Made by a program: the position numbers and the translations under genes | Virus record (IMG/VR): IMGVR_UViG_3300025132_000046 | Coordinates: 1-56,422 of that record | From: a virus | Length of the DNA stretch: 56,422 bases | Direction: 5' to 3' (one strand) | Shown here: in pieces, positions 1,065 to 29,240 of the stretch | Layout: every line of letters begins with the position of its first letter | How positions within the stretch are numbered: position 1 is the stretch's first letter | Notes under the pieces: model-generated | What the model saw: only the letters and a program-made list of their open reading frames with translations | The model's database searches: none | Told to the model about the DNA's origin: nothing

Positions 1065-1072
1065 TTATACCT

Positions 1073-4035: not shown

Positions 4036-4047
4036 TTTACTCTCCCA

Positions 4048-4760: not shown

Positions 4761-4794
4761 AAAATGTTCCCCTTAAAACTAAATTTTATAGTAA

Positions 4795-5783: not shown

Positions 5784-5784
5784 T

Positions 5785-6435
5785 TTATGCTCCTACCTGT
5801 GGAACAAAACTTACACTAGCCGTATCTCTGTCCTCAGCGGCAGCTCGAGCAAACTCTTCTTCATAAAGAGTTTTTAAAACGGCTGTTCTATCGGGTGCAA
5901 ATTTTAAAGATAAATAATAAGCTAATCCTGCCGATAAACATGGAAGAAACCTAAAGTTTACGTCTAATGTGTTTGTATAGTTACCAGGATCTTGTATACG
6001 TCTTATTCTGTAGTATTTAAAAATATATGCTTTGTCAGGAGTAGGATACAAAAAAACTTTAGGAACATTTGTTCTTTCAACATAGTATTGTGCGGGTCTT
6101 GCCTCTGTGGACTTGTTTGGAAGATTTAAATACTCTGCCCTACTTATTCTGTCTATTGCGATGTCGTTTGTATCATTTATAACTGCTGTTAAAACATTTA
6201 CTATGTCAGTTCCTAAATTGTAACTAGTGGTAGAAGCTGTTAAAGATATGGTAGCTTGTTCAATTGTCCAAAGATTTAATCCTCTATTTGCCCAATCAAG
6301 AAATAGTAAATTAAGAGATCTTCTAGCAGAGTTTAACTGATAACCAGAAGTCATACGCATACCACAACGCTCGTAAGACTCTTCAATTAAATCGTCTACG
6401 TTTAAATCAAAATTAGTTGTATTTGAGGTAGCCAT
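5785..6435 (-). CDS. head-tail adaptor-like protein 1
   Basis: A 216-residue protein with LNVDDLIEESYERCGMR near the N terminus, the helical segment LNLLFLDWANRGLNLWT, and a beta domain with KVFLYPTPDKAY, then a long C-terminal helix (LKTLYEEEFARAAAEDRD). Helix-beta-helix order and the D-P/T-P-D turn match tail-tube/adaptor proteins of P22-, SU10- and phiEco32-type phages. The similar organisation of the 4795-5454 gene suggests an ancient duplication. It is likely to bind the portal ring. Confidence 0.7.
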   Translation of the reverse strand: MATSNTTNFDLNVDDLIEESYERCGMRMTSGYQLNSARRSLNLLFLDWANRGLNLWTIEQATISLTASTTSYNLGTDIVNVLTAVINDTNDIAIDRISRAEYLNLPNKSTEARPAQYYVERTNVPKVFLYPTPDKAYIFKYYRIRRIQDPGNYTNTLDVNFRFLPCLSAGLAYYLSLKFAPDRTAVLKTLYEEEFARAAAEDRDTASVSFVPQVGA

Positions 6436-14972: not shown

Positions 14973-17365
14973 TTTTCTCCTCTATTTTCTCTCATTTGCT
15001 TTCTTTCTTCTTGTGCCACTCTTTCCCTAGCAATATTTGCTTTTTCATCCGCTATATCTCTAGTTGCTTGAAGCCTTTCTTGGGCAAGTTGAGCATCCAT
15101 TTGCATATCTTGAGCTTGTAAATTTATTTTTTGAGAACTTTCTTGTGCTTTTCTTTGAGTATCTTGTGCTCTAAGTTGTAATTCTTTTTCTTTTAGTTGA
15201 ACTATTGGGTCAGGTTGACCTGCACCAGACAATTGTTGCGATGCTTGTCGTAACTGTTGCATATTTTGCATTACCATTTGAGCAACTTTTGCTTCTTTTT
15301 CTATATCCGTTACAGCATTTTTGTAATTTTCCCCAAATTGCTTGAATAATTCAGCCTCTGTCATTTCCTCTGACTTTAACCTAACGTGTTCTAAAATGTG
15401 TTTTGTTAAATTATTCGCAGCCAAAGGATTTTGCTGAACAATGGGAGACATTCCCTGAAGTAAGTGGGTTAAGATATGAGCATCGTGCTCTTGTCCAGGA
15501 AATGCCTTTAAAGATTTACCATCCAAAGCTTCTGCATTTTCTGTTGCAGGATCCTTTGGTTGAGGAGTTTGTGTGTCATCAGGTTTAAGAATCATGTCAA
15601 TATCTCTCGTACCTAAAGCTTCATACATTCTCCTGTACGCTTCATAAATGTTATGTATTTGAGGATTTGATTGAGCTAATTGTAACTGAGTTTGAGCCAT
15701 TGTAATTCTTTGTGCAGCAGAATAAATATTCGGATCTGCACTAGGAATAATATCAATTCTCTCGTCAAAATCCTCTTTTAAAATAGTTCTATCTGCACCA
15801 GGCACATCATATGGATATTCATCCGGTAAATACTTATAAAACGCATCTGCCATTAATTCAAACTCTAATTTTTGCGCATAGTGTAACCTTTTGTGAATGC
15901 CAGACATGACCATTGCACCTCTTTCTAACATTGCAATCGTTGTGCCTACTGCGGCTTGTTGATTACCATCTCCGATTTGCATATCGGAAATGCTCGATAA
16001 CCGTCTACCCATATCAATACAAAAACCTAACAACGTAAATAACGTCTGACTAGGCTCCTTGTATGGCAAAGGTAATAACGAAGATTGTAGATCACCTCCT
16101 CCCGCATCAACATCCCTAAACTCTCCTGGCTGTAGCGGTTTATCATCATCTGCAATGCGTAAACCCCTAGCCTTAAATCCAGCAGGTAAATTAGCTAATG
16201 TCCCTGCATCGAGTAATTGTCTCAATGCGGCAGTAGCCGATCTTGTTAGATTTCCAATTAAGTGAACTAAACCATAGCCCATGCAACCAGGGCCAGGTAA
16301 AAACATATAATGTACAAAGTACTGACGCGGAGTGAAGTCTTCATCCTCCTCGTCATAGTTTCTATAAATCGATAAAACTTCTCCAGAGTCTTTATCTATC
16401 GTCACAATGTACGGTAGTTTCAATCCGTCTTTGTTACCGTAACCAGGTAAATCTAAGTGAATATGCGCTTCCAACAAAGTATAACTCAAGTCACTTTCAT
16501 TACTGTCGATACCAGATACACGATCTTCAGCTTCACGAATGGAGCTGATCTCTGGAGTGCTTTCCTGTAAATCTATATCTCTATACGTTCCATCAATCTG
16601 ACGTTTTTTTAACTCATTGCCAGACATCTGAACTACCTGAATACAACGCTCATTTTCCCACGGATTACTGGAGCCATCGTATGGCATCACAAAATTATCC
16701 GGCAAAATAAACGGAGATACACATCTCTTTTTCGATTGATCGTAATACACTTTCTTAAACGCTGAACCACCATAACCGACATACCACAGCATCTGATCAA
16801 AATCAGGCGTGTATTCTTTCATCACCGTAGTAATCTGGTAATTCATAAAGTCCTTGATCCTTTGTGCTTGTTGCTCCTTTTTCTTAGTAGGAGTACCAAG
16901 AACCTGTGTTCTTACAGGACCGCCAGATGGCATCAACTCTTTCATGGCCTGAGCACAGAATTGAATAATCGCTTCTGTCATCAACGGAACATGAACACCG
17001 GATGCACCACGAAATGGTTGCGTCTTTTCTTCGTATTGAAAACCTAAAAGTTTTAACCCCTCAGAATACGTCCTTTCCCAAGCGTCACGACTAGACATAT
17101 CTGATTCATACAAATCCAAAATATTCAAAGATATTTTTGTTAACTCAGAATCTTCAATCTTTTCTGCTAAGTTCTCTTCATGCTTAGAAACTTCTTGCTG
17201 ATCATCTTCTCCAATGTTTATTGTTGCACCGCCCTCATCATCAAGGACAACACTAATTTCTTCTTCTGGAGCAATGGTGGTCTGTTCTACTTCTACAGTC
17301 ACGGAACCCTCTGGTAAAGAATCAGGGGTCAGGGCTTTTTCTATATTGTCAAATGGGTTAGCCAT
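14969..17365 (-). CDS. portal protein
   Basis: A 798-residue portal protein of the large podovirus type. The first 90 residues are acidic, followed by the conserved block SRDAWERTYSEGLKLLGFQY, RGASGVHVPLMTEAIIQF, FDQMLWYVGYGGSAFKKVYY and FILPDNFVMPYDG (clip/stem domain region), a long wing part, and a C-terminal helical, Gln-rich barrel-like region (residues about 690-798: QLRAQDTQRKAQESSQK). It forms the dodecameric DNA gate at the capsid vertex and works with the terminase. Length fits P22-like and marine podovirus portals better than the about 530-residue T7 type. It follows the transglycosylase gene directly. Confidence 0.85.
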   Translation of the reverse strand: MANPFDNIEKALTPDSLPEGSVTVEVEQTTIAPEEEISVVLDDEGGATINIGEDDQQEVSKHEENLAEKIEDSELTKISLNILDLYESDMSSRDAWERTYSEGLKLLGFQYEEKTQPFRGASGVHVPLMTEAIIQFCAQAMKELMPSGGPVRTQVLGTPTKKKEQQAQRIKDFMNYQITTVMKEYTPDFDQMLWYVGYGGSAFKKVYYDQSKKRCVSPFILPDNFVMPYDGSSNPWENERCIQVVQMSGNELKKRQIDGTYRDIDLQESTPEISSIREAEDRVSGIDSNESDLSYTLLEAHIHLDLPGYGNKDGLKLPYIVTIDKDSGEVLSIYRNYDEEDEDFTPRQYFVHYMFLPGPGCMGYGLVHLIGNLTRSATAALRQLLDAGTLANLPAGFKARGLRIADDDKPLQPGEFRDVDAGGGDLQSSLLPLPYKEPSQTLFTLLGFCIDMGRRLSSISDMQIGDGNQQAAVGTTIAMLERGAMVMSGIHKRLHYAQKLEFELMADAFYKYLPDEYPYDVPGADRTILKEDFDERIDIIPSADPNIYSAAQRITMAQTQLQLAQSNPQIHNIYEAYRRMYEALGTRDIDMILKPDDTQTPQPKDPATENAEALDGKSLKAFPGQEHDAHILTHLLQGMSPIVQQNPLAANNLTKHILEHVRLKSEEMTEAELFKQFGENYKNAVTDIEKEAKVAQMVMQNMQQLRQASQQLSGAGQPDPIVQLKEKELQLRAQDTQRKAQESSQKINLQAQDMQMDAQLAQERLQATRDIADEKANIARERVAQEERKQMRENRGEN

Positions 17366-18196
17366 TTATCTTCCTTGTTGAAATTTTTTAACACCTTCCA
17401 TAGAAGGAACCTTGTTCCTTGGTTTTTGCTCCTTGACCATAACATCTAAAGGAGTCTCATCCTGAGCAGACTCTTTAAGGAACTTAGTCAAAGGGTCAAT
17501 TTTACCTTTCTTGGGCATTGCACCAAGGCTCATATCAGATAAAAAATTTTTCTCTGCTTCTGTTTGATTCTCCGACAAAAAAGTAATTGCAGCAGCTATG
17601 TCATAACTAGATGGTTGTTGAACAGGATCCATGAAGGGTTGTTGCACAATCGTCATGTCTGTATTTAAGATTTCTTCTTTTGAAGGTTTGCTCACACCAG
17701 GAGTTGCTGGCGGTCTAGGAAAGGGAACACCAAATTTTTCATTTAGATAGGCATACGTTTTTGCCCCGCCTTGCTTATAAAACTTTGTAGAAGAAGGTAG
17801 AGAAGTAAATTGTCTGCCAAGATTTTCTATTGCTCTAGTATGTCCCTGACCCCCTTGCATCACATCATCTAAAACTCCTTCTCCTTTTAACAACAAAATA
17901 AAAGCCTTATCTTGTGCTTCAGGAGAGAAATCTGTGATTTCAGCTTGTGGGTTTTGATCTACTATACCTTGAAAAGTTGTGTTCAAAAATTGATACCTTC
18001 CTGCCGCATCACTTACTCCATCGGCAGTTCTAACACCAAACTTATCAGGATGCTTAGAATCATCATCAAAAGTTTCTCCGCCAGTTATGACGTTGTATCG
18101 ATTACCGGATTCTAAAGTTCCGATAATATCCATAAACTTTTGTACGTTTGGATTATCTCTAATCTGTAATAACTGTTCTGAAGTTAGTTTTTCCAT
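17366..18196 (-). CDS. lambda-type lytic transglycosylase (GH104-like)
   Basis: A 276-residue protein. Residues about 15-165 resemble the phage lambda R endolysin: catalytic glutamate in TLESGNRYNV (E29), YNVITGGETFDD, K-H-P-D, AAGRYQFLNTTF, DFSPEAQDKAFILLLKGEG, then NLGRQFTSLPSS. That domain cleaves the glycan strand without hydrolysis. The remaining 110 residues are a Pro/Gln-rich extension of unknown function. Its site between portal and terminase rather than with the holin suggests it may be carried in the virion and open the wall during DNA entry; lysis at the end of infection is the alternative. Confidence 0.75.
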   Translation of the reverse strand: MEKLTSEQLLQIRDNPNVQKFMDIIGTLESGNRYNVITGGETFDDDSKHPDKFGVRTADGVSDAAGRYQFLNTTFQGIVDQNPQAEITDFSPEAQDKAFILLLKGEGVLDDVMQGGQGHTRAIENLGRQFTSLPSSTKFYKQGGAKTYAYLNEKFGVPFPRPPATPGVSKPSKEEILNTDMTIVQQPFMDPVQQPSSYDIAAAITFLSENQTEAEKNFLSDMSLGAMPKKGKIDPLTKFLKESAQDETPLDVMVKEQKPRNKVPSMEGVKKFQQGR

Positions 18197-18199
18197 TTA

Positions 18200-19657
18200 T
18201 CAATAATACGAAAATTGTGGAGGACCCACTTCGTCCTCAATATAATCAGAGGGTAAATCGATGAAGTTACCCTGTCGAAACCGCATAACTGCTTGAACCG
18301 CACTATCAACCAAGTCATCATGGTCACCATACGGAAATTCTGCCATTTCTTCAACAACCTCCTCTGCCCAAGGTTCATCAGGAGCCCACACCATTCCAGA
18401 TTCAAAAACGGGAGCAATCGCATTTGCTCTACTAATCTTATCTGTTCCAGAGTTTCTTCCTCCTGGTGAGTAGTTTACTACAGGAATACCAGTTCTGCGA
18501 AGTTCTTGAGACAAAGGTAAACCTGATGCCTTAGCCTCTATTAAAACACAATCTGGACTCCAGTATTTGTATAATTCATATGCGACCTTTTTTAGCTCAG
18601 GAAAATCCCATCTTCCTTTCTTTGAGTCAATTAAAATTAAAGCTTCTGTTTCTTCGTCTGGGCGAAAAACTCCCCACGTTGTGATTGCAGAAAAGTCTGC
18701 TGTCTCTTTTTTAGTATACGCAGTATCGTAACTCTGTATCACATAATCTAATGAAGGTATGGTTTGACCCTCATACACATTCCACCACTCTCTTTTGAAG
18801 ATTGCGCCTTCTTCTGCTGTTGGGTTTTGTTGCCATTGAGCATTCCATTTAGATATTGGCAAAGCCGCCTTTACCGCCAAAAGATCTTGTTCTTTCCACA
18901 TCTCAGGCCATGTAGGTTTACCGCTTGGCAACAATGCTGGAAACTCAATAACTTCCCATTTATCTGCACGGCTGTCTTTTGCCTGATCGTTTAATACCTG
19001 AGCAGTTAAGTCAACTTTAGACCATCGAGTCATAACCAAAAGAATTTTGCCTCCTGGTTGCAAACGCTGTCTAGGACCAGAGGTGTACCATTCGTATGCC
19101 TTTTCCATAGCTGTTTCAGACAATGCGTCTTGCTCCGAATGCGGATCGTCAATAACCAAAAAGTCAGCACCACGACCTGTCATTGCACCACCAACACCAG
19201 AAGCAAAGTATTCCCCTCCCTTACTTGTTTCCCATCGACCCGCGGCTTTACTATCTGCAGCCAATCGAACATCGGGGAATACCTCTCTGTACGCATCGCT
19301 ATCCATAAGGTTTCTGACCTTACGACCAAAGCGCATGGCTAACTCAGCTGTGTGTGTTGCCTGAATGATCTTGGACTCAGGATGATTGCCCATGAGCCAA
19401 GCTAAATATAGATAAGAAGTTAATTCAGACTTACCATGACGAGGTGGTATGTTAATTATGATGCGATTACATTGATCATTTACTAATCGTTCAAATTGTT
19501 TTGCCATCTCTTTGTGATGGTATCCACAAATAAACTGAGGCCAGATAAATCGCACAAAAGACAAAAAGTTTTTCTTTGCATCTTCTAAGGCAGTCAGTCT
19601 TGCTAATCTGTACTCAAGTCTAGCAATCTCTGTTTCTGGGTCTTCTTTTATCAACAT
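18200..19657 (-). CDS. terL: terminase large subunit
   Basis: A 485-residue DNA-packaging motor. The ATPase has a Walker A-like PPRHGKSE (residues 71-78) and a Walker B FLVIDD (166-171), with QATHTAELAMRFGRKVRNLM between and a motif III-like LLVMTRWS (207-213). The C-terminal RNase H-like nuclease shows QSYDTAY (D311), LIEAKASG (E374) and GDHDDLVDS (D446, D448). This is the Terminase_6/TIGR01630 type. It begins the long minus-strand late block. The small subunit is not adjacent but about 6.6 kb away at 26249-26926. Confidence 0.9.
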   Translation of the reverse strand: MLIKEDPETEIARLEYRLARLTALEDAKKNFLSFVRFIWPQFICGYHHKEMAKQFERLVNDQCNRIIINIPPRHGKSELTSYLYLAWLMGNHPESKIIQATHTAELAMRFGRKVRNLMDSDAYREVFPDVRLAADSKAAGRWETSKGGEYFASGVGGAMTGRGADFLVIDDPHSEQDALSETAMEKAYEWYTSGPRQRLQPGGKILLVMTRWSKVDLTAQVLNDQAKDSRADKWEVIEFPALLPSGKPTWPEMWKEQDLLAVKAALPISKWNAQWQQNPTAEEGAIFKREWWNVYEGQTIPSLDYVIQSYDTAYTKKETADFSAITTWGVFRPDEETEALILIDSKKGRWDFPELKKVAYELYKYWSPDCVLIEAKASGLPLSQELRRTGIPVVNYSPGGRNSGTDKISRANAIAPVFESGMVWAPDEPWAEEVVEEMAEFPYGDHDDLVDSAVQAVMRFRQGNFIDLPSDYIEDEVGPPQFSYY

Positions 19658-19783
19658 TTCGATACGTTTTGAATTTTGTGAAAATTTTATAGCAAAAAGG
19701 CTTTTTAGACAAGGTGGGGGGTCATAGGTTTTCCATACGTCTTCCTTTGCCTAAATCTTGTGTAAAGGTGTGTTAGTAGAACT

Positions 19784-19798
19784 GGGCGGGTGGGTGGG
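19784..19798 (+). other. G-quadruplex motif 1
   Basis: GGGCGGGTGGGTGGG, four G3 tracts with single-base loops, which is the most stable class of parallel quadruplex. TGTCAA follows 17 bases later, the same arrangement as motifs 2 and 3 near 21.6-21.75 kb. Confidence 0.75.
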
Positions 19799-19867
19799 TC
19801 ACGCGCCAGGATCCATGTCAAATATTTTTTGCCTATACAGCCAGGGACTCCGATAGAAAAAAACAAT

Positions 19868-19896
19868 TAGACCTGAGTATATATCTGGTATATACT
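19868..19896 (+). promoter_or_regulatory. promoter with overlapping operator for the accessory operon
   Basis: TAGACC (19868-19873), 17 bases, then TATACT (19891-19896) form a sigma70-like promoter 30 bases before the first gene. A perfect inverted repeat AGTATATA-TCTGG-TATATACT (19876-19896) covers the spacer and -10 element, as expected for a repressor or activator site. TATACTGTA is shared with the region before the SNF2 helicase (38162-38170). Confidence 0.6.
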
Positions 19897-19925
19897 GTAT
19901 TTGTAATTAACAGAAAGGAGAAAGT

Positions 19926-20147
19926 ATGCTAGACGAAGCCACAGCAAAAGCAATAGCTGAGTGCGTTGCTAGAATCAATCCAAAGATGATGCAAGGTGAG
20001 GGCGCAATATTCACTCAAAGCGGTTTAGAGTCATTATTGCAAATCAACCACGCGTTTGCATTGCAAATGATTCGACACCTATGCCAGAACCTTCATGTAT
20101 ATGAGGATATGGTTCAAGACCTAAAGAAAATAAAGGAGGGGGCGTAA
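19926..20147 (+). CDS. hypothetical protein, first gene of accessory operon
   Basis: A 73-residue helical protein, MLDEATAKAIAECVARINPK, ending in DMVQDLKKIKEGA. A strong AAAGGAGAAAGT ribosome site precedes the ATG, and the operon promoter lies 30 bases upstream, so it should be the earliest and best expressed product. I do not recognise the family. As the first early protein it could take over host functions or counter defence, but nothing in the sequence proves this. Confidence 0.65.
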   Translation: MLDEATAKAIAECVARINPKMMQGEGAIFTQSGLESLLQINHAFALQMIRHLCQNLHVYEDMVQDLKKIKEGA

Positions 20148-20169
20148 GCCCTCTCCGAAAGGAGGAAGT

Positions 20170-20439
20170 ATGTTAAGAGGAATGACAATAAGAACACTTA
20201 AAAAAGCGTTGATTAGTGAATCCAATTCTGAAACGATTGCCGATAATCTACAAAAAGCAAGTCGGGCATTGGAGCAAGTGCATTGGCATATCTGCACCAG
20301 AGATTCAACTAACATGAGAATCCTTGCTAAAGATCCTTCAACTAGACCTGTTCTAGCATTACTAGTCCATTGGGCAAAAATAGAAGGTCTGGGATATGAA
20401 GCAATCCAAGATGCATTACATAAGGAGAAAGGAAGATGA
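20170..20439 (+). CDS. hypothetical protein
   Basis: An 89-residue mainly helical protein (MLRGMTIRTLKKALISESNS) with a His/Trp/Cys patch, QVHWHICTRDS, in the middle. It has an AAAGGAGGAAGT ribosome site. Its stop lies within the ribosome-binding cassette of the next gene. No family recognised. Confidence 0.6.
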   Translation: MLRGMTIRTLKKALISESNSETIADNLQKASRALEQVHWHICTRDSTNMRILAKDPSTRPVLALLVHWAKIEGLGYEAIQDALHKEKGR

Positions 20440-20453
20440 AGAAAGGAGAAAGT

Positions 20454-20657
20454 ATGAGTAAAGTTCCAAAGTGTTGTTTATGTGGTGTGTCATGTGATGA
20501 AGTAGCAAAGAATAAAGATTGGGTTGAAGGTAATAATCCTTGGCCTCTTTCTAATAAGCCAGATGATCGCGCGTGTGATATCTGTAATGATTTCTTTGTA
20601 GTTCCTAAAAGGTTTGAGGCAATGTTTGAAGCCATTAAAAGAAAGGAGAAAGTATGA
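20454..20657 (+). CDS. small zinc-finger-like protein
   Basis: A 67-residue protein with CCLCGVSC and CDIC pairs (residues 7-14 and about 42-45), enough for one zinc site, and the segment PWPLSNKPDDRACDICN, which I know from small phage proteins that resemble the C-terminal zinc half of phage HNH-like or host-takeover factors. The ATG at 20454 follows AAAGGAGAAAGT; an upstream ATG at 20436 lacks one. The C terminus KRKEKV is the translated ribosome site of the next gene, with which it overlaps (GTATGA). Confidence 0.65.
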   Translation: MSKVPKCCLCGVSCDEVAKNKDWVEGNNPWPLSNKPDDRACDICNDFFVVPKRFEAMFEAIKRKEKV

Positions 20658-20839
20658 GTAAAGGAACCGATATGGTAAGCAAGAAAGAGGTAGTGTTGAT
20701 CAATTCAAAGGGCGGAGAACTGCCCTTTGATTGCCCTGTAAAATTAATGAAGTTTTTAGATCATGAATTTCTGATCACTCATCGTCTTTCTCTTAATGAA
20801 TGGAAGTGGGAAGTAAGAAAAAGAAAGGAGAAAGTATGA
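20654..20839 (+). CDS. truncated paralogue of the 23695-24096 protein
   Basis: A 61-residue protein whose residues 12-55 (VVLINSKGGELPFDCPVKL and then FLDHEF, EWKWE) closely match residues 4-45 of the 133-residue protein encoded at 23695-24096. The rest is missing and replaced by RKRKEKV, the translated ribosome-binding cassette of the next gene. This looks like a partial duplication captured at a cassette boundary. Whether the short copy is functional is unclear; start may also be the ATG at 20672. Confidence 0.65.
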   Translation: MSKGTDMVSKKEVVLINSKGGELPFDCPVKLMKFLDHEFLITHRLSLNEWKWEVRKRKEKV

Positions 20840-20979
20840 ACCAGATCTTATTTAAGTTTACTGACCAAGAGTTAAAACTCTTGGTCAGATTGCACAGAAA
20901 GTTTGAGAAAGAACTAGGATGCAGTATTTCCAGGAAACAATTATTTATATTAATGATTAAGGAGGGTTTGAAGAAATGA
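20836..20979 (+). CDS. 47-residue protein, possible ribbon-helix-helix regulator
   Basis: A short gene with a strong AAAGGAGAAAGT site and coupled start (GTATGA). The product has a short strand-like N terminus (NQILFKFTDQELKLLVRLHR) and two helices, the second ending SRKQLFILMIKEGLKK, the size and order of a ribbon-helix-helix DNA-binding domain. The gene end (20953-20979) is repeated at 21289-21315. Its place inside the early operon would fit a transcriptional regulator; the call is tentative. Confidence 0.5.
   Translation: MNQILFKFTDQELKLLVRLHRKFEKELGCSISRKQLFILMIKEGLKK
20953..20979 (+). repeat. 27-bp gene-end/ribosome-site repeat, copy A
   Basis: ATGATTAAGGAGGG followed by TTTGAAGAAATGA, encoding MIKEGLKK-stop and at the same time the ribosome site and ATGA start of the next gene. 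The copy at 21289-21315 differs at two bases and is noncoding apart from this remnant. Confidence 0.8.
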
Positions 20980-21287
20980 ATAGCAGATTAAACCTTGAGG
21001 TCTATGACAAAATGGCAGATTCTAAAAACTGGGCAATGTTTACAGAAACAGGGAACAAAAGAGTTCAAGAGGTTTTTGAACAGTCTTTAAAAAAAGATAG
21101 AGGTTCTTCTGCAAAGCCATACTTTACATTTGCATCGCAAGCAATAGATAAGCTTAGTAAGAACAAAAACTTTCAAGAAGCGATGGATTCTGAAGTACGG
21201 AGAACTCTTTATAATCGCATTGAATATGTTTTAGAGAAATCCAACATACTTGAATTTGGCGAATATTGGGATGACCATGTTTGGTAA
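20976..21287 (+). CDS. hypothetical protein
   Basis: A 103-residue protein (MNSRLNLEVYDKMADSKNWA), predicted mostly helical, acidic at the C terminus (EFGEYWDDHVW). It starts at the ATGA overlap with the 47-residue gene, with AAGGAGGG about eight bases upstream. I do not recognise a family. Confidence 0.6.
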   Translation: MNSRLNLEVYDKMADSKNWAMFTETGNKRVQEVFEQSLKKDRGSSAKPYFTFASQAIDKLSKNKNFQEAMDSEVRRTLYNRIEYVLEKSNILEFGEYWDDHVW

Positions 21288-21288
21288 T

Positions 21289-21315
21289 ATGATTAAGGAG
21301 GGCTTAAAGAAATGA
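21289..21315 (+). repeat. 27-bp gene-end/ribosome-site repeat, copy B
   Basis: A second copy of the 20953-20979 element (25 of 27 bases the same), ending in the ATGA at which the 21312-21596 gene starts. It looks like a remnant of a duplicated gene end kept for its ribosome site. Confidence 0.8.
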
Positions 21316-21596
21316 TAGAAACTATTACAGAGTATCAATTTGTTAATGAAATGATCAAGCATAATCATTTTACTGTTCAGGGTTCAAAAGTACTATTTCA
21401 GTTTTTAGAAGAAATTAGCCCAAATGCAGAATTTGATCCTGTTGATATTCGTTGCAGATATCACGAATATGAAAGCTTTGAAGAAATACAGGAGGAATAT
21501 AGCAATTTGGATATAAAAAGTATTTCTGAACTAAAAGATTATACGATAGTTCTTGAAATTCCTGATTCCAATAGACTAATTATCTTACAGTTTTAA
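21312..21596 (+). CDS. conserved small phage protein, acidic
   Basis: A 94-residue acidic protein, MIETITEYQFVNEMIKHNHF, with EFDPVDIRCRYHEYESFEE in the middle and a beta-rich C terminus (YTIVLEI, LIILQF). The pattern 'FDPVxIRCxYxEYESFEE' is common in small early proteins of many tailed phages, without known function. Acidic surface and early position would suit a protein that binds a host factor. It ends at a likely terminator (21613-21641). Confidence 0.65.
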   Translation: MIETITEYQFVNEMIKHNHFTVQGSKVLFQFLEEISPNAEFDPVDIRCRYHEYESFEEIQEEYSNLDIKSISELKDYTIVLEIPDSNRLIILQF

Positions 21597-21604
21597 ATGA
21601 ATCT

Positions 21605-21620
21605 GGGTTGGGTGGGTGGG
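21605..21620 (+). other. G-quadruplex motif 2
   Basis: GGGTTGGGTGGGTGGG, loops of two, one and one bases. It starts eight bases after the 21312-21596 stop codon and shares G tracts with the terminator hairpin at 21613-21641, so the two structures compete. Confidence 0.75.
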
Positions 21621-21641
21621 TTATCGCTCACCCAAATTTTT
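21613..21641 (+). terminator. probable intrinsic terminator
   Basis: TGGGTG (21613-21618) pairs with CACCCA (21629-21634) around a ten-base loop and is followed by AATTTTT. It lies just past the end of the first block of the accessory operon. Confidence 0.5.
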
Positions 21642-21728
21642 GTCAAGTCAAGTATTTTTTATCTATCCTTTATCCTTGTTTAATAGGTATTAACTAATGA
21701 ATCAAGGAACTAAGATTATAAATTGTTT

Positions 21729-21745
21729 GGGGTGGGGTGGGTGGG
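21729..21745 (+). other. G-quadruplex motif 3
   Basis: GGGGTGGGGTGGGTGGG with single-base loops. TGTCAA follows 20 bases later, as after motif 2. Confidence 0.75.
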
Positions 21746-21778
21746 TTGCCCGATTCCCTTTTATTTGTCAATGGTTTT

Positions 21779-21795
21779 GGGGTTGGGTGGGTGGG
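21779..21795 (+). other. G-quadruplex motif 4
   Basis: GGGGTTGGGTGGGTGGG, loops of two, one and one bases, followed by T5. It lies eight bases after the TGTCAA of motif 3. Confidence 0.75.
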
Positions 21796-21912
21796 TTTTT
21801 GGCGCACGTTTCAAGGATCAAGGAACAAACAAGAGGGCGCAAGTTTTTTTGCTATCCTATAAAGGATATGAGATAATAATAAAAGTAGTTTAGAAAGCAT
21901 AGAAAGGTAGAA

Positions 21913-22620
21913 ATGATAGAACAAAAAATTATATTCACAAAAAAGAAAGCAACAGAGATTATTGGAACTTTGGGGCATTCTTCTAAGATGGGAAATGATG
22001 TCAATAACTTTGGCATCTCTGTTTTAAATTGTGGCGTTGGTTCAAAACTTCACAAATGCAAAGGTTCAGTTTGTGAAAATTGTTACGCATATGAAGGCAA
22101 TTACAATTATCCTAGTGTTCAAAAATCCCATGCTAAAAGACTAGAAAACCTAGAAGTTCAGGATCGGGAAACGTGGGTTCATGGTATGGTTTTCCTAATA
22201 GATAGATCGGGAAAAAAGTTTTTCCGGTGGTTAGATTCTGGCGATTTTAACAAAAGCGCAAAGGCTAACGGAATAGAATTTTTAATTAGGATTGTAGAGG
22301 TAGCAAAGCTAACGCCAAAAGTTAAGCATTGGATACCTTCAAAAGAATATCCGCTTATTAAAGAGTATTTAGAACAATACGGAAGTTTTCCAGAAAATGT
22401 TGTAGTTCGGATTTCTGATTACATGGTAGACAAAAACAAATTTAAACCTAATGCAAATTATAAAATTTCTACTGTGATCTCAAAGGTAGAAAACTATAAT
22501 TTGATCAAAACGAATAATTCTGTTTTATGCCATGCGACTATTGACGGTTCGCACAAATGCGGAGATTGCAAAAAATGTTGGTCTAAAAAATACGATCAGA
22601 TCGTATATTTAGCGCATTAG
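21913..22620 (+). CDS. GP88 family protein
   Basis: A 235-residue protein of the phage 'gene product 88' family. Visible hallmarks are the N-terminal CGVGSKLHKCKG and SVCENCYAYEG cysteine cluster, the central FFRWLDSGDFNKS, KHWIPSKEYPLI, VVVRISDYM, and the C-terminal Cys cluster HKCGDCKKCW with IVYLAH at the end. The cysteines suggest a metal or Fe-S site as in related Gp37/Gp68-type proteins, but the reaction is unknown. It starts after a weak AAAGGTAG ribosome site following the G-quadruplex region. It is one of the few large genes of the accessory island. Confidence 0.8.
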   Translation: MIEQKIIFTKKKATEIIGTLGHSSKMGNDVNNFGISVLNCGVGSKLHKCKGSVCENCYAYEGNYNYPSVQKSHAKRLENLEVQDRETWVHGMVFLIDRSGKKFFRWLDSGDFNKSAKANGIEFLIRIVEVAKLTPKVKHWIPSKEYPLIKEYLEQYGSFPENVVVRISDYMVDKNKFKPNANYKISTVISKVENYNLIKTNNSVLCHATIDGSHKCGDCKKCWSKKYDQIVYLAH

Positions 22621-22631
22621 GAGAATTGAAA

Positions 22632-22706
22632 ATGATTTTATTATTTATTGGAATTTATTTTGCGTATTTAATTTTAATTATTCTGGAATGGATGCTAAAC
22701 AAATGA
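22632..22706 (+). CDS. 24-residue single-span membrane peptide (copy 1)
   Basis: The frame ATG 22632 to TGA 22706 encodes MILLFIGIYFAY followed by LILIILEWMLNK: almost one hydrophobic helix with an acidic residue near the end. TAGGAG lies about eight bases upstream, and its stop overlaps the start of the next gene (ATGA at 22703-22706). A related peptide is encoded at 25894-25962, with identical residues at 12 of 22 positions. Such peptides may disturb or regulate a membrane protein. Confidence 0.6.
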   Translation: MILLFIGIYFAYLILIILEWMLNK

Positions 22707-22891
22707 AAAGTAAAGGCGTTTTAGTTAAACATTTAATTGAAGAATTAGAAAAATATGATGGCGATTCGCATTGTATGGTTTGGGTTGGAGGTTCGGTAGG
22801 TTTTGCCAGTTTATATTTAGATGGTCAGGGAGACGATCCAAACGACCCTGTCGAATTTAGTTTTTTTCCAAAGGGTATAAACGATGAATAA
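22703..22891 (+). CDS. small acidic hypothetical protein
   Basis: A 62-residue protein (MKSKGVLVKHLIEELEKYDG) with the segment HCMVWVGGSVGFASLYLDGQ. It starts at the ATGA overlap with the membrane peptide; an ATG at 22688 would add five residues but would overlap the peptide gene more. The 'LVKHLIEELEKYDGD' opening is seen in small phage proteins of unknown role. It overlaps the next gene by eight bases. Confidence 0.6.
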   Translation: MKSKGVLVKHLIEELEKYDGDSHCMVWVGGSVGFASLYLDGQGDDPNDPVEFSFFPKGINDE

Positions 22892-23330
22892 TAACAATTC
22901 AATTGAGGTATACATCAAAAACATTAAAAGAGGTTTTATAGATAGGGAACATTATTGGAAAGATCTCCCTATTCCTAAAAGTTGGGATCACTATGTGAGT
23001 TATCGCAATGACGAATGCCCAAGTTTTTTAGTCAAAAATTATTGGCAAGTTTTTATAGATCATCCCGACCCTAAAAAAAGATATGGGTATGACCCTGACC
23101 ACGATTTCCTAAGAGGAAAAGAAGATATTGAAGAGGATTCTTTACAGTTTCATAATCCGTACTGGAATGTCCCACCCCGATTTATAGTAGTTCCTTACGA
23201 TTGGGGGTGGTTAGAAAATAGTGAAAATTGGGATCACCATCATATATTTTATGTGTTTAATGAAATGATTAGATTTTTAAATGATCATCGTAATATGATT
23301 GACAAATTTTTGAACCAGAGAAAGGGATAA
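22884..23330 (+). CDS. hypothetical protein rich in Trp, Tyr and Asp
   Basis: A 148-residue protein (MNNNNSIEVYIKNIKRGFID) with unusual aromatic content, including PYWNVPPRFIVVPYDWGWLE and WDHHHIFYVFNEMIRFL. No known family. The H-H-H and D-rich segments could bind metal. It has a four-base gap to the next gene and overlaps the previous one, so it is well integrated in the operon. Confidence 0.6.
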   Translation: MNNNNSIEVYIKNIKRGFIDREHYWKDLPIPKSWDHYVSYRNDECPSFLVKNYWQVFIDHPDPKKRYGYDPDHDFLRGKEDIEEDSLQFHNPYWNVPPRFIVVPYDWGWLENSENWDHHHIFYVFNEMIRFLNDHRNMIDKFLNQRKG

Positions 23331-23334
23331 TACT

Positions 23335-23682
23335 ATGGGATTTTTTAGTTGGTACACAAACGACACACGCAAAGTAATCTGGAATCGGTTTGCAAAAGGC
23401 AGGAAGGTACAAACAGTTTACTTAATCGATAACAAAGGCAACAAGTATAAAGAAGACAATTACGAAGGCTATGGAGTCTTTGGAGGTAAAGACTTTTTTG
23501 TAGTAGTTGCAGAAATGAATGGCATTGAGTCAAATGAAAACTCAGCAAGAAGTCTAGGTATAAAGCTTGTACATTCAAACAAACCTTATTTAAGTCCCAA
23601 CTTAGTAACCAATCCTGAAACCCCTTGGAAAAACAAAGCACCTGAAGACCATGAAGGTCAAGGTTTTTGGAACTGGAAATAG
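23335..23682 (+). CDS. conserved phage protein of MGFFSW family
   Basis: A 115-residue protein beginning MGFFSWYTNDTRK and containing KEDNYEGYGVFGGKDFFVVV and AEMNG, then a GIKL segment and a Pro-rich C terminus ending GQGFWNWK. I know this 'MGFFSWxTxDT...NYEGYGVFGGKD' protein from very many phages and some bacteria, always without function. It lies centrally in the accessory operon. Confidence 0.7.
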   Translation: MGFFSWYTNDTRKVIWNRFAKGRKVQTVYLIDNKGNKYKEDNYEGYGVFGGKDFFVVVAEMNGIESNENSARSLGIKLVHSNKPYLSPNLVTNPETPWKNKAPEDHEGQGFWNWK

Positions 23683-23694
23683 AGAGGAATAGAA

Positions 23695-24096
23695 ATGAAT
23701 AAAACTGTATTGTTAATTAACCCAAAAGGTGGAAAACTGCCTTTTGATTGCCCTGTAAAATTATTGCAATTTTTAGATAATGAATTCCTACAGGGTGCAT
23801 TGCCTGATGAATGGAAATGGGAAGCATGGCGAAGTGGAGATAAAAACGAAGTTCAGATTAATAAACTATTCAATGATCAAGTTTTTATAGAAGGCTATGA
23901 AGTTGAATTATTTGAAAATGAATCTCAAAGTGGTTTCTATTTTAAAATTTGGGACGGTTATGCAGAGGAATATATTGATGTAAGGTCTTCTGAATTTCTT
24001 GATTTACATACAAGTTACGTTTTTGCTGATAGAGAAACTGCTATTGAAACTGCTAAGAAATTAATTATAGAAAACAACGATAGGGAGTATGACTAA
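23695..24096 (+). CDS. hypothetical protein, full-length copy of the 20654 gene
   Basis: A 133-residue acidic protein. The N-terminal 45 residues (TVLLINPKGGKLPFDCPVKL onward) are shared with the truncated product at 20654-20839, including at the DNA level. The C-terminal part has YAEEYIDVRSSEFLDLHTSY and a helix with ETAIETAKKLI. The family is unknown to me. AGAGGAATAGAA precedes the ATG; its stop overlaps the next start (TAATGA). Confidence 0.6.
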   Translation: MNKTVLLINPKGGKLPFDCPVKLLQFLDNEFLQGALPDEWKWEAWRSGDKNEVQINKLFNDQVFIEGYEVELFENESQSGFYFKIWDGYAEEYIDVRSSEFLDLHTSYVFADRETAIETAKKLIIENNDREYD

Positions 24097-24446
24097 TGAC
24101 AGATAAAACAACTACAACATATTGGAATTGTTGCGATGAGTTGGATGAATATTTACAAAAGACATTCCCTGATTTAGCTAGGGAACATTACCTACACATC
24201 GAACACTCAGGCGGATTTTATTTTCACTATTGTTTAGCCGTTCAGGGTTGGTATATGTTGATCAACCCTAGTGATGAGGAAGTAGATGACATCAAGGGAT
24301 TGACGGATGCAGATAATCAGGAAGTGATCTGTACGTTTCGTAGTGACGATTGGGAGATTGAAAAACCATTTACTATGCCAAGCTTGAATGAAGCTATTAA
24401 GGAATGGTATAAGCTTTTGGAGAAATATGGAAAGGAGAAAGTATGA
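24096..24446 (+). CDS. hypothetical protein
   Basis: A 116-residue acidic protein (MTDKTTTTYWNCCDELDEYL) with HIEHSGGFYFHYCLAVQGWY in the middle. Its last residues, GKEKV, come from the AAAGGAGAAAGTATGA cassette that starts the next gene, as in the genes near 20.65 and 20.83 kb. No family recognised. Confidence 0.6.
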   Translation: MTDKTTTTYWNCCDELDEYLQKTFPDLAREHYLHIEHSGGFYFHYCLAVQGWYMLINPSDEEVDDIKGLTDADNQEVICTFRSDDWEIEKPFTMPSLNEAIKEWYKLLEKYGKEKV

Positions 24447-24808
24447 AACGCAAAAAATACAAATTTAAATTTTATCCTAATGCACCTAAGGAAGTTTTAA
24501 ATTGGTTAGGAGATCGAGGAATAGAAGTTGATACCACTTGCTCATGTTGCCAACAATCAATAAAAATCAAGTGTGTTGTAATTGAATGTCCGACAATTGG
24601 AAGATGGTTATTCATTGAGAACTTAGAAGAAAGATTAAATGATGGATTTGTTGATGTGGATATCTATCATATGGAAGGGATTGAAGCTGAGGTCATTGAT
24701 ATGTTTTGTTTTCACTCTAATTGGGAAGATCCAGAAGTTTTGTATGATAAAGCGGAGGATCTATTTGATAGTTATGTGCTACCTTATTTGGAGCAAGAAA
24801 CATGGTAA
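24443..24808 (+). CDS. hypothetical protein with cysteine cluster
   Basis: A 121-residue protein with KFKFYPNAPKEVLNWL at the N terminus and CSCCQQSIKIKC plus a further IEC nearby, giving a possible metal site; the C-terminal half is acidic and helical (LYDKAEDLFDSYVLPYLEQE). Ribosome site AAAGGAGAAAGT and overlapping start (GTATGA). No family recognised. Confidence 0.6.
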   Translation: MKRKKYKFKFYPNAPKEVLNWLGDRGIEVDTTCSCCQQSIKIKCVVIECPTIGRWLFIENLEERLNDGFVDVDIYHMEGIEAEVIDMFCFHSNWEDPEVLYDKAEDLFDSYVLPYLEQETW

Positions 24809-25014
24809 ATTACCTAACAGAGTATTATAAAGGATTAATAGGTTATCAAGTAGTTGGCTATAAACACAAAGATGGGTTTCCAACTCTTGTAATGGAAAAT
24901 ATGCGTAAAAATAATAATCCCAAAACTATTTCTGTAGCAGTTTCTAAAGATCCTGAAGGAAATGGTGAAGGGTTTTTATTAATAACATGTGCATCAGGGG
25001 ATGCATCCTTTTAA
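24802..25014 (+). CDS. hypothetical protein
   Basis: A 70-residue protein (MVNYLTEYYKGLIGYQVVGY), predicted as a small beta barrel-like or mixed fold with SVAVSKDPEGNGEGFLLI. It overlaps the preceding gene by seven bases, which suggests coupling. No family recognised. Confidence 0.55.
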   Translation: MVNYLTEYYKGLIGYQVVGYKHKDGFPTLVMENMRKNNNPKTISVAVSKDPEGNGEGFLLITCASGDASF

Positions 25015-25023
25015 GGAGTAGAG

Positions 25024-25278
25024 ATGCTTAAAACTAGAATTCACATTAACCAACACGTTATAAAGGCAAATCGTAAGACCGGAGAAACTAATCCGGTCAT
25101 TACAGTGAAAAATAGTCGAAGTAATACTTATGGTCATTCAGTAAAAATTGATGGTCATTGCGAGGTTGTGTATCGTCCAGATAAACCACTTAGTTGTGGT
25201 GCTCATGTCTGGATCGAGACAACAGGTGTAGTAGAAGTAGATGGAAAAATTGTAAATCAGAAATTAGAAAGGAATTAA
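25024..25278 (+). CDS. conserved small phage beta protein
   Basis: An 84-residue protein starting MLKTRIHINQHVIKANRKTG and containing YGHSVKIDGHCEVVYRPDKP and CGAHVWIETTGVVEV. I know this short 'RIHINQHVIKANxKTG... LSCGAxVWIET' protein from a wide range of phages, where it is conserved but uncharacterised. The strand-rich sequence suggests a compact beta fold. AAGGAG is seven bases before the start. Confidence 0.7.
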   Translation: MLKTRIHINQHVIKANRKTGETNPVITVKNSRSNTYGHSVKIDGHCEVVYRPDKPLSCGAHVWIETTGVVEVDGKIVNQKLERN

Positions 25279-25279
25279 T

Positions 25280-25897
25280 ATGCCAAACTTTTGTGGTAAT
25301 TTATTGACTATAAAGTCACAAAACAAAAGTCTCTTAGAGAAAATTAAGGATATTCCACATACAGGTGGAGACGAAGGTTTACTAGGGTTTTTTAGACCAA
25401 TGCCAGAAGAAATAAAATCTCGTAATCCGGGAGATCCGACTAGACCAAACAAGCAAGAATTTACACAAAAATATGGTGCTGATAATTGGTATGCTTGGTC
25501 AAACAAATACTGGGGTACAAAGTGGGATGTTGAAGAATATAGAGATTGCAGTCTCATTAGTTTAGATAATGGTGTTTGGATGTTGGATATTGAATTTGAA
25601 ACTGCATGGAATCCACCAATTGAAGCAATTGAGTTTTTCGTAAAACACGCCAGAGAAACTATTGACTCTATGTCTGAGGATGAAGTCTTATCATCAGTCA
25701 CGCTGCAATACATCGAACCTGGTGAGCAGTTCTGTGGAATTTACGACTTTTTAAATAAATCAGAAAGCTTTGAAATAGACTTTACGAAAGATGATTTTCC
25801 TAATAGTAAACTTGACTATATCTGGTTAGAGGAGGAAGTAGAAGCTGAAAAAGCTTACCAAAAAGAGATGGATGAAGAATGGAAGGAAACAACATGA
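25280..25897 (+). CDS. DUF1281/YubB ferredoxin-like family protein
   Basis: A 205-residue protein with the opening MPNFCGNLLTIKSQNKSLLE, the central ADNWYAWSNKYWGTKWDVEE and the strand-helix FETAWNPPIEAIEFFVKH, which together mark the DUF1281/Api92-like proteins with ferredoxin-like domains found in phages and plasmids. Function is unknown. The C terminus is very acidic. Its stop overlaps the start of the second membrane peptide (ATGA), and it is the last sizeable gene of the accessory operon. Confidence 0.75.
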   Translation: MPNFCGNLLTIKSQNKSLLEKIKDIPHTGGDEGLLGFFRPMPEEIKSRNPGDPTRPNKQEFTQKYGADNWYAWSNKYWGTKWDVEEYRDCSLISLDNGVWMLDIEFETAWNPPIEAIEFFVKHARETIDSMSEDEVLSSVTLQYIEPGEQFCGIYDFLNKSESFEIDFTKDDFPNSKLDYIWLEEEVEAEKAYQKEMDEEWKETT

Positions 25898-25962
25898 TTA
25901 TGTTTGCCATTGGATTAGCCATTGCCTATATCATCTTTATCATATTGGATGAAATGCTTTGA
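25894..25962 (+). CDS. 22-residue single-span membrane peptide (copy 2)
   Basis: ATG 25894 to TGA 25962 encodes MIMFAIGLAIAY then IIFIILDEML. It starts at the ATGA overlap with the DUF1281-like gene, and its 3' half overlaps the end of the minus-strand nuclease gene. It matches the 22632-22706 peptide in pattern (MI, IG, AY, I-I-L, acidic residue, ML). Two copies in one operon, each translationally coupled, argue against chance. Confidence 0.55.
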   Translation: MIMFAIGLAIAYIIFIILDEML

Positions 25963-26334
25963 ATAAGAAACTAACCAGTTCTCGAGATTAGTGCCATTTA
26001 GAGGACCTTTTAAATCTGGAATTGAGTGCAACCCATGTTCATTCAATTCCAGAATTCTTTTAGAGTGATACACATTCATATTCTTTAAATCATCGCTCGC
26101 TGCAACTATAAAACACAATAAATCTTCATGCTTTTTATGAAAAGAAACTTGATGAGGGCTGAACCTTAACTTACCTGTTTTAGTAGCAACTTTTAATTCG
26201 ACTAAAAACCATCCTCTCTTCAAACCGATCAAGCAATCTGGAACCCCCTTATTTATCCAAGTCTCCACCCTCACTATCTTCGACTGTTTCATTTGATTTT
26301 TTAGTTTTTTGTACAGACTTTTTTCCTTTGCCAT
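25915..26334 (-). CDS. VRR-NUC-like PD-(D/E)XK nuclease
   Basis: A 139-residue protein with the compact nuclease pattern: an E in VRVETWINKGVPD (E24, D33), then GWFLVELKVA (E46, K48) and FSPHQVSFHKK (Q62). This is the order of the VRR-NUC/Holliday-junction-resolvase-like fold. Such phage enzymes resolve recombination or packaging branches. The start at 26334 is backed by GAGG, and it overlaps the terminase small-subunit gene by 86 bases in another frame. Linkage to terS suggests a role in packaging or DNA debranching. Confidence 0.75.
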   Translation of the reverse strand: MAKEKSLYKKLKNQMKQSKIVRVETWINKGVPDCLIGLKRGWFLVELKVATKTGKLRFSPHQVSFHKKHEDLLCFIVAASDDLKNMNVYHSKRILELNEHGLHSIPDLKGPLNGTNLENWLVSYSKHFIQYDKDDIGNG

Positions 26335-26926
26335 TTAAATCCTCATATTTTAGTTCTTTATCTACAAGTTTTTCTTTCTCAATTGATTCAACTACTTGAG
26401 CATCCGATATATCCAAAAAAGACTTTTTCAACTCTCTCAGCTTCTGCTCAACTTCTTCTTTACTCATCGAATCAATCGTCCCGGTGCGGATCTCTTTCCT
26501 ATCGATATAAATATTACCCAAGGCCTGACCTCTTCTATATTCAGCCATAACTGCAGCAGAATACGCACCACTTTCCAAAGCCTTATCTCTTATCATTTTA
26601 AGATCTTTCATGTGACGTTCAAAAGTAGTTCCATATCTTTCTGCCAGTTCTACCTGTCTTCTCTTAATATACTCAACAACATGAGGGTATTGTCTTGGAT
26701 CAGTAAGTTGAGAAGCTTTTATTTGAGCAGATTTTGGAGGATATCCGGCTTCAATCGCGGCATCCCTCATAGTTATCTCTCCGGCTCCAGTTAGCCATAT
26801 TTCAACAAACTTTTGTTCTCTATCACTCAAAGCTCTAGGTTTTTTCTTAGCCAGAGGGACAGTTTGAATCCTAACCATAGCTTTATGGGTTGCTCGAGGG
26901 AGACTTCTTCCTGGAATCTTAGGCAT
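26249..26926 (-). CDS. terS: terminase small subunit
   Basis: A 225-residue protein. The ATG at 26926-26924 has AAGGAT seven bases upstream; a TTG two codons earlier is less likely. Residues about 30-95 match Terminase_2-type small subunits: LSDREQKFVEIWLTGAGEIT, DAAIEAGYPPKSAQIKASQL and HVVEYIKRRQVELAERYG, a DNA-binding helix-turn-helix region. The rest is helical with a Lys-rich and acidic C terminus that would contact the large subunit. It lies 6.6 kb from terL, with the plus-strand island between them. Confidence 0.8.
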   Translation of the reverse strand: MPKIPGRSLPRATHKAMVRIQTVPLAKKKPRALSDREQKFVEIWLTGAGEITMRDAAIEAGYPPKSAQIKASQLTDPRQYPHVVEYIKRRQVELAERYGTTFERHMKDLKMIRDKALESGAYSAAVMAEYRRGQALGNIYIDRKEIRTGTIDSMSKEEVEQKLRELKKSFLDISDAQVVESIEKEKLVDKELKYEDLNGKGKKSVQKTKKSNETVEDSEGGDLDK

Positions 26927-26960
26927 TTTCAAATCCTTATATAGTTAAATTCAAAAAAAA

Positions 26961-26987
26961 AAAAAAATATTTTTTAAAAAATGAATT
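26961..26987. repeat. 27-bp AT-rich direct repeat, copy 1
   Basis: A7-TA-T6-A6-TGAATT; matches 27115-27141 at 26 of 27 positions, 154 bases apart. Confidence 0.8.
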
Positions 26988-27114
26988 TCGCCTGACACAA
27001 TTTTATCATTACATATACTATAGTATTACTGTAATACTTAGTGTAATGGTATAACCTATTGTTTCTATTACATTATTACACTATTACACTAAATTACTTT
27101 ATTTTGAAGAAATA

Positions 27115-28274: not shown

Positions 28275-28446
28275 TGTTATCTCCTAATTTTCCTTGTTTC
28301 TGTAAACGTGCAATGATTACCTTTTTAACAATATCTTTACAAAAGAAGCTGTATCCAATTTCATCAGCTTCTTTTAAAAACTCACCCAACGGAGTTTTCA
28401 TTATTTCCTTGTGAGTCTCACTAATTAACTTTTCTAGATCGTTCAT
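28267..28446 (-). CDS. 59-residue hypothetical protein
   Basis: A short gene between the DNA-binding and acetyltransferase-like genes: ATG at 28446-28444 overlaps the upstream stop (ATGA), and the frame ends with TAG at 28269-28267, overlapping the next start by eight bases. Product MNDLEKLISETHKEIMKTPL, then GYSFFCKDIVKKVIIARLQ. Helical, mildly basic. Coupled overlaps on both sides support it as real; no family recognised. Confidence 0.6.
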   Translation of the reverse strand: MNDLEKLISETHKEIMKTPLGEFLKEADEIGYSFFCKDIVKKVIIARLQKQGKLGDNNG

Positions 28447-28928
28447 AGCTCTTTTATGTAAAGTCTTTTATCACAGTTAGGTTGATCTGTTCTTCTTTTC
28501 GGATTTAATTCAATAACATTTTCGCCAAATAAATCATCCGTTCTAACTTTTTTATAATACTTCCATTGTCTACCCAAGACATCGTGCCTGAATTTCCAAT
28601 TAGAAGCTTTTAAACTAGAACCAAATTCACTTTTTAAAATGTACGTTTGAATTTGTTTATAACCCATTTCTCTAGCAATTCTAGCTGCCGCACTATATAA
28701 AAAGGAACAAGCATTTTTAGTTCCGTCAGTACAGAGTCTTGTTACTTCAATTACTTTCATATGGTCAAACGCTCTTGCGACAGGTCTTCCGGCCATACAG
28801 ACTCCAACTAGATTATCATCTTTCATTGCACCGATTTGCCATTTACAACGCAAAACAGGCTTATGATGACGATGATGCTTTTCCACAAAATCATTCGCAT
28901 CCTTTAAAGAAAGTGGAACAACTATCAT
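28443..28928 (-). CDS. XF1762-like GNAT-fold protein
   Basis: A 161-residue protein with the pattern of the XF1762-type phage and plasmid proteins: ANDFVEKHHRHHKPVLRCKW, GVCMAGRPVARAFDHMKVIE, VTRLCTDGTKNACSFLYSAA and GYKQIQTYILKSEFGSSLKA. These are thought to have a GNAT acetyltransferase fold, but no reaction is known. HHRHH and RLCTDGT are the strongest marks. It lies in an overlapping series of small genes beside the methyltransferase. Confidence 0.8.
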   Translation of the reverse strand: MIVVPLSLKDANDFVEKHHRHHKPVLRCKWQIGAMKDDNLVGVCMAGRPVARAFDHMKVIEVTRLCTDGTKNACSFLYSAAARIAREMGYKQIQTYILKSEFGSSLKASNWKFRHDVLGRQWKYYKKVRTDDLFGENVIELNPKRRTDQPNCDKRLYIKEL

Positions 28929-29057: not shown

Positions 29058-29240
29058 TCACTTCCTTCCATAAAGATACTTTATCTGAAACTCTTTTTCT
29101 TTTAACTTGTTTTTCAAAATTTCACCATTGTTAAAACAAATTTTAATTAGTTCTTCTTGTTGCCTGACCTTTGAGGCTAGGGCTAAGAAGTCTTCCCAGG
29201 TAACAAACTCTTGTAAATCCTCTTTCTTATCTTTCTTCAT
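29058..29240 (-). CDS. 60-residue hypothetical protein
   Basis: I use the ATG at 29240-29238, which has AAAGGA upstream and overlaps the methyltransferase end by 14 bases; seven extra upstream codons are possible. The product (MKKDKKEDLQEFVTWEDFLA) is charged and helical. No family known. Confidence 0.55.
   Translation of the reverse strand: MKKDKKEDLQEFVTWEDFLALASKVRQQEELIKICFNNGEILKNKLKEKEFQIKYLYGRK

Follow-up and report, generated by a model that had tools for sequence, protein, structure and literature searches.

Polar G-rich repeats marking the interval between the terminase genes of marine phages: a putative packaging-initiation region

Results and Discussion

Genes and repeated motifs of the locus

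In the stretch of viral DNA that was analysed (56,422 nucleotides, hereafter the window) the two terminase genes lie apart from each other on the minus strand. The gene terL, encoding the large subunit (18200-19657), was recognised by PHROG_38 (E 4e-115) and by the Pfam families Terminase_6C and Terminase_6N, and is the left border of the zone described here. The right border is terS, encoding the small subunit (26249-26932), which matched PHROG_641 (E 1e-7) and a TerS profile (E 1.5e-69) built from relatives of the annotated TerS of DSL-LC04, 023Pt_psg01, HTVC027P and HTVC023P; the training set of this profile included the window ORF itself, after its first phmmer match. A megablast search with positions 15000-27000 gave no match among phage records. 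Elsewhere in the window a Mom-like DNA modification protein (28443-28928, PHROG_1384) and a DNA methyltransferase (29227-30474, PHROG_116) are encoded, and judging from these homologies the phage probably modifies its own DNA.

Four G motifs are found in this zone on the plus strand: motif 1 at 19784-19798 (GGGCGGGTGGGTGGG), motif 2 at 21605-21620, motif 3 at 21729-21745 and motif 4 at 21779-21795. By sequence all four have four G tracts able to stack, with loops of one or two bases. The initial annotation had given exactly these coordinates and this strand and had noticed no further copies, which agrees with our scan of both strands over the 56,422 bases, where they were the sole motifs with tracts of three or more G and loops of up to 7. 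Order-1 and order-3 Markov simulations yielded no motif with loops of up to 2 and at most one with loops of up to 7. The hexamer TGTCAA does follow motifs 1, 2 and 3 at 17, 20 and 20 bases, as had been claimed; the chance of finding it within 25 bases of a given site is about 0.6%, so that its presence at three of the four sites has a P of about 9e-7 if the sites are independent. The repeats are thus not a chance occurrence, and they are conserved in close relatives, as described below.

The motifs were also said to be confined to noncoding gaps. They do lie within the 4.8% of the window outside the ORF set, with the reservation that motifs 3 and 4 overlap a 59-aa ORF (21697-21876). In an alignment read by eye, a one-base gap breaks the frame of this ORF in the close relative L008 and the changes relative to another, L006, are all nonsynonymous; we therefore treat the ORF as noncoding, and a coding status of motifs 3 and 4 was rejected because of the broken frame in L008.

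Several smaller boxes accompany the motifs on the plus strand. Close to terL there is a G run, GGTGGGGGGTCAT (19713-19725), which is invariant in the close relatives L006, L007 and L008, and distant relatives carry similar G runs upstream of terL. After motif 1, TGTCAA and a box of the form AT..T6GCCTATAC (19816-19838) are followed by GGGACTCC (19844-19851), invariant in close relatives and a candidate core packaging or operator box, and by the likely promoter of the first rightward operon (19867-19896; TTAGAC and TATACT), in which 6 of 6 positions of the -35 and 5 of 6 of the -10 are invariant. Pattern search and alignment of the close relatives placed a second copy of the T-rich box, GTCAAGTATTTTTTATCTATCC, at 21647-21668, and identified the TGTCAA after motif 3 (21766-21771), which has no T6 box. 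After motif 4, positions 21840-21877 comprise a third, degenerate T-rich box and a promoter (TTGCTA-17-GATAAT) for the unit that follows; this promoter is conserved in close relatives and its unit includes a GP88-family gene (21913-22620, plus strand; Pfam PF17338, E 4.5e-21).

The statement that TGTCAA twice runs into T6 was correct in part: T6 is present, as part of a longer repeated box, GTCAARTATTTTTTNYCTATNC, found at 19817-19838 with 0 mismatches and at 21647-21668 with 1 mismatch to the searched pattern (0.04 expected), with a degenerate copy near 21840-21862. At motif 2 there are two overlapping GTCAAG units, of which the TGTCAA represents the first; the box begins at the second, 5-6 bases further on. 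TGTCAA was also considered as a minus-strand -35 (TTGACA) and rejected, no -10 being seen by eye, and the likeness to the IHF consensus was only partial. The T6 box was discarded as a widespread element, given that its matches in the collection with an upstream G motif all belonged to the same species group; a G-tract version of the search added three distant look-alikes.

Conservation in close relatives

The close relatives L006, L007 and L008 encode TerL proteins 99, 99 and 96% identical to that of the window, and all three keep G tracts and TGTCAA; a comparison with relatives had been proposed in the initial annotation. Motif 1 is invariant at 15 of 15 positions across them. The 16 bases that come next have a constant length and not one invariant position (0 of 16), and downstream of them GTC(A/C)AA, T5GCCTAT, AGGGACTCC and the TTAGAC/TATACT promoter are kept. 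Invariant boxes placed around a spacer of free sequence and constant length imply selection on separate boxes at a fixed distance. A hairpin in this spacer is not kept, the L007 sequence being unable to form one. Motif 3 is invariant at 16 of 17 positions in L006 and L008, and motif 4 at 14 of 17.

Motif 2 is part of a sequence (21605-21641) in which a hairpin at 21608-21635, with a predicted RNA fold of -18.6 kcal/mol (z -5.2), is followed by a T run. In L006 a nine-base gap deletes the four-tract motif and keeps a perfect 8-bp stem and the T run, and the three versions of the hairpin all fold stably (-18.6, -15.9 and -18.9 kcal/mol). Since the four tracts were lost in L006 while stem and T run were kept, and all versions fold stably, we conclude that an intrinsic terminator, located after the ORF at 21312-21596 and ending the first rightward operon, has motif 2 as its 5' arm. 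The sharing of bases between this motif and a terminator hairpin had been pointed out before, and the hairpin itself proved to be conserved. The likeness to intrinsic terminators, a stable G-rich hairpin with a T run at a gene end conserved in relatives, does not extend to the other motifs: motif 1 has no hairpin in L007, and at motifs 3 and 4 the complement is weak or missing and a clean T run is absent.

L006 has the cassette of motif 4, promoter and GP88 gene twice, the second copy being diverged and placed at the other contig end. The 59,927-bp contig IMGVR_UViG_3300029319_000045 (L459, L460) has two diverged copies of a cassette composed of motif 4, promoter, small gene and GP88, one per contig end, 94% and 86% identical to the window; these may be due to tandem duplication, strain variants or an assembly effect.

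A wider family of elements

When the collection was searched for GGGTGGGTGGG with TGTCAA after it, 84 stretches were obtained; many come from marine phages and keep a constant spacing (19, 20 or 22), and others look like chance matches. Searching GGGTGGGTGGGCCC alone gave a non-redundant set of at least about 150 elements, and the consensus of the matches listed is a polar element, GGGWGGGTGGGCCC-N8-C(A/G)AGC, the C(A/G)AGC partner being present in 126 of 146 elements among those matches. In this widespread form the potential for four tracts is at the level of chance (37 of 150, against 38.6 expected, among the matches listed). Beyond the species of the window the recurring feature is usually the polar element and not a four-tract quadruplex.

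Motif 1 has identical counterparts in L089, L093, L101, L102 and L150, and in these and in L128 the same GGGCGGGTGGGTGGG stands 18-19 bases before TGTCAAG. In another phage group, L095, L337 and L357 each contain four or five modules in which loop lengths shift and four tracts are kept; several of these modules also have GTCAAG and, further on, a G run. As a four-tract pattern was used to find the extra copies, they support selection for a quadruplex weakly. Across relatives, then, four tracts are kept at motif 1 and in these three phages and lost at motif 2 in L006. The motifs resemble regulatory G-quadruplexes in having four G3 tracts with loops of 1-2 bases, and in the shifting loops and constant tracts of this other phage group, but in the widespread form three tracts plus CCC are usual and the potential for four tracts is no higher than expected by chance, and the quadruplexes here are predicted ones. 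A convincing quadruplex pattern can be partly a by-product: what the family shares is position, polarity and partner boxes, and some of its members keep four tracts.

Short-query BLAST of the element in phage records found 023Pt_psg01 only. The element plus TGTCAAG had 23 matches in bacterial and archaeal genomes, from unrelated lineages and forming no family by their titles, and these were set aside as chance. In Rfam the window had no match at the gathering threshold, and six relatives had nothing near gathering scores. We found no account of the elements or boxes in Rfam or in the literature accessible without subscription, to which our search extended; word searches of the main texts of PMC9599517, on HTVC023P-type genomes, and of PMC12753301, on the HTVC027P transcriptome, also failed to find them there. 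This set of one-way G-rich repeats in many ocean phages is apparently undescribed so far.

A subgroup with about 50% GC or above (L230, L240, L251, L273, L291, L300, L315, L321 and L323) has GGTGGTGGCGGGGGTGGGTGGGCCCGC, often with a further AGGGGGGAGGGCCAT box downstream, and in its members with TerL the polarity of the element relative to terL is reversed.

Position and polarity relative to the terminase genes

Both terminase genes were present in 60 non-redundant loci, and of the 112 G elements in these, 111 fall between terL and terS. The lone exception is in L297, where the start of terL was probably over-extended. Weighted by noncoding DNA, this confinement has a binomial P of 4e-20, the elements within a locus not being independent of each other. 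On contigs with TerL, all 108 class I elements are upstream of terL, at distances of 41-4478 bp, and none occurs in 702 kb downstream. Most loci were fetched by the element itself, for which reason searches of whole records weigh more: in the window the four copies all lie within the zone, and in 023Pt_psg01 five G elements, one mismatch being allowed, all lie between terS and terL. Other matching contigs have 1 to 4 copies each. The initial annotation had assigned the motifs to an accessory operon; accessory genes are indeed present, and the zone is better described as the terL-terS interval than simply as an operon.

The elements are also polar. The G strand points away from terL in 97 of 111 elements and the other way in 14, the exceptions coming from the subgroup near 50% GC and from certain relatives (L011, L014 and L016 among them). 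For elements not beside terL, the strand arrangements of the neighbouring genes (18, 23, 16 and 24) do not predict polarity. In L095 and L337, where TerL belongs to another PHROG family, the G strand runs opposite to most of the genes beside it, and the polarity relative to terL is unchanged. Since polarity follows terL and not the local gene strand, a general RNA-based function does not predict it. The idea of RNA switches acting on the coding strand, suggested for the four motifs at the outset, is consequently not supported as a general explanation. The four-tract potential of the widespread form, too, is at chance.

Boxes of the GGGAC(C/T)CC type (GGGACCCC, GGTACCTC, GGATCCCT or GGGACTCC) form a second polar component. 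Of the 37 loci with G elements, 27 have such a box no more than 320 bp from terL, and none has one at 700-1050 bp; 40 of the 41 boxes inside the intervals share one orientation. Where paired, they are mostly 61-65 bp apart (about 64 bp), and the G element is usually located between or just after them. The window has a single box of this type, GGGACTCC, 60 bp past the start of motif 1. The pair is also found in the cultured phage HTVC027P, which has no G element.

The Pelagibacter phages HTVC027P and HTVC023P and the phage 023Pt_psg01 resemble the window in having homologous TerL (56-60%) and TerS, an interval of 3-5 kb and boxes of the GGGACCCC / GGTACCTC type beside terL. They differ among themselves in that 023Pt_psg01 carries five G elements whereas HTVC027P and HTVC023P carry none at all, and the window is distinct in using GGGCGGGTGGGTGGG plus TGTCAA and not the form with CCC plus C(A/G)AGC. 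It had been stated that related phages with the same genes and no G tracts or TGTCAA would speak against a control module. On this point the outcome is mixed: close relatives keep both, but several relatives with 56-78% identical TerL, HTVC027P and HTVC023P among them, have no four-tract motif on that strand.

A putative packaging-initiation region

The G motifs of the window are local members of a polar, repeated G-rich family that marks the terL-terS interval in a broad group of marine phages. Confinement to the interval, polarity along the genome axis and the polar boxes beside terL fit a packaging region better than transcription control. From these sequence features we are inclined to propose, with slightly less than even confidence, that the zone is a packaging-initiation (pac/cos-like) region between split terminase genes. 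The site at which the genome is cut and packaged (or copied) is probably what the elements mark, and a function as RNA switches is the less likely one.

Phage packaging-initiation sites such as cosQ-cosN-cosB of lambda and the pac sites of P1 and SPP1 consist of directional, partly repeated signals beside terminase genes. The zone in the window likewise has directional, partly repeated signals by its terminase genes, organised as a core box plus satellites; the difference is that here the signals are G-tract elements distributed along as much as 4.5 kb, between terL and terS genes that lie apart, and that their packaging role is putative. Under such a scheme the G elements, together with their C(A/G)AGC or GTCAAG partners, would be read by the terminase as directional sites, and core recognition or cleavage would take place at the GGGAC(C/T)CC box next to terL. 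Applied to the window, the scheme would assign the core to motif 1 with its TGTCAA and GGGACTCC, and would make satellites of motifs 3 and 4; motif 2 has a further function as the 5' arm of the terminator closing the first rightward operon. A bolder version, possible and on present evidence doubtful, is that of a multipartite packaging-initiation system, common to many abundant marine phages with two TerL families, in which directional G-tract elements along the interval, some of them quadruplex-competent, would set the start site and direction of the terminase.

Some observations weigh against a packaging role: HTVC027P and HTVC023P do without the G element, the elements extend to 4.5 kb from terL with genes between, and the interval contains about 65% of the noncoding DNA of the loci. 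Contig ends were also considered. By hand count 17 of 80 TerL contigs stop in the first 350 bp upstream of terL, whereas each further stretch of that length contains about 5 ends. The positions are scattered, with no single site; they may be assembly breaks or real ends, look more like the former, and were not taken as evidence of genome ends at the GGGACTCC box.

A function at the boundaries of transcription units is unlikely, although several features of the intervals would suit it. The elements would then separate small early units, each standing after one unit's terminator and ahead of the following unit's promoter, and would tune termination or initiation through a G-rich hairpin or a nontemplate-strand quadruplex, TGTCAA serving as half-site for a regulator. 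The terminator at motif 2 is conserved, and motifs 1 and 4 are each followed by a promoter; away from terL, elements are preceded by T runs in 39% of cases, have TTGAC just after them in 30% and 25% (background about 5%) and lie about 120-160 bp before the next codirectional gene; and TGTCAA is about 3.6-fold enriched on the G strand inside the intervals. Against this, polarity follows terL even beside opposite-strand genes, as in L095 and L337 with their mostly antisense flanking genes, and no element is found among or beyond the late genes.

A replication origin in the interval, with the G elements as polar origin signals (priming stabilised by an R-loop or quadruplex, or initiator iterons) and DnaA boxes in some phages, is less likely still. 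The DnaA box TTATCCACA occurs 17 times inside and 4 times outside the intervals (in 13 and 3 of the 60 loci, respectively), an enrichment that shrinks to about twofold once noncoding DNA is taken into account, and it is absent from most loci with elements and, as an exact box, from the window. The repeated C(A/G)AGC units are iteron-like and strand-biased, and L092 and L104 carry tandem units of G element and DnaA box; the zone is, however, linked to no initiator gene. Least probable of all, in our opinion, is that the elements are recombination or mobility junctions by which accessory genes of the interval are exchanged. The presence of accessory genes in the interval, the position of elements at gene boundaries and the second cassette of L006 agree with this, but it predicts neither the constant polarity on one genome axis nor the fixed-length spacer of free sequence after motif 1 and the box pairs about 64 bp apart. 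Packaging, transcription, origin and cassette roles could coexist.

The cis-acting signals of Pelagibacter-type phages are little known, even though these phages are among the most abundant viruses of the ocean. A conserved, polar element bounded by terL and terS offers a testable locator for the start of packaging or of replication, and can serve as a noncoding marker of these phages.

Other observations

Upstream of terL in L092 and L104, the tandem units combine a G element with a hairpin-like palindrome, TGTCAA and a perfect DnaA box. G tracts seem to be used in a different way, linked to translation, in contig IMGVR_UViG_3300002966_000450 (L384), where six four-tract G motifs occur in 5 kb (853-5990), each directly preceding a Shine-Dalgarno-like GGAGG and a start codon, e.g. 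GGGTGGGTGGGTGGGaattaaaaggaggtaaaaaATG. In L090, L150 and L166 an ORF of 144-149 aa is located on the late-operon side, between a structural gene and the G element, and its product resembles, by eye only, a toxin-activating lysine acyltransferase of the HlyC type.
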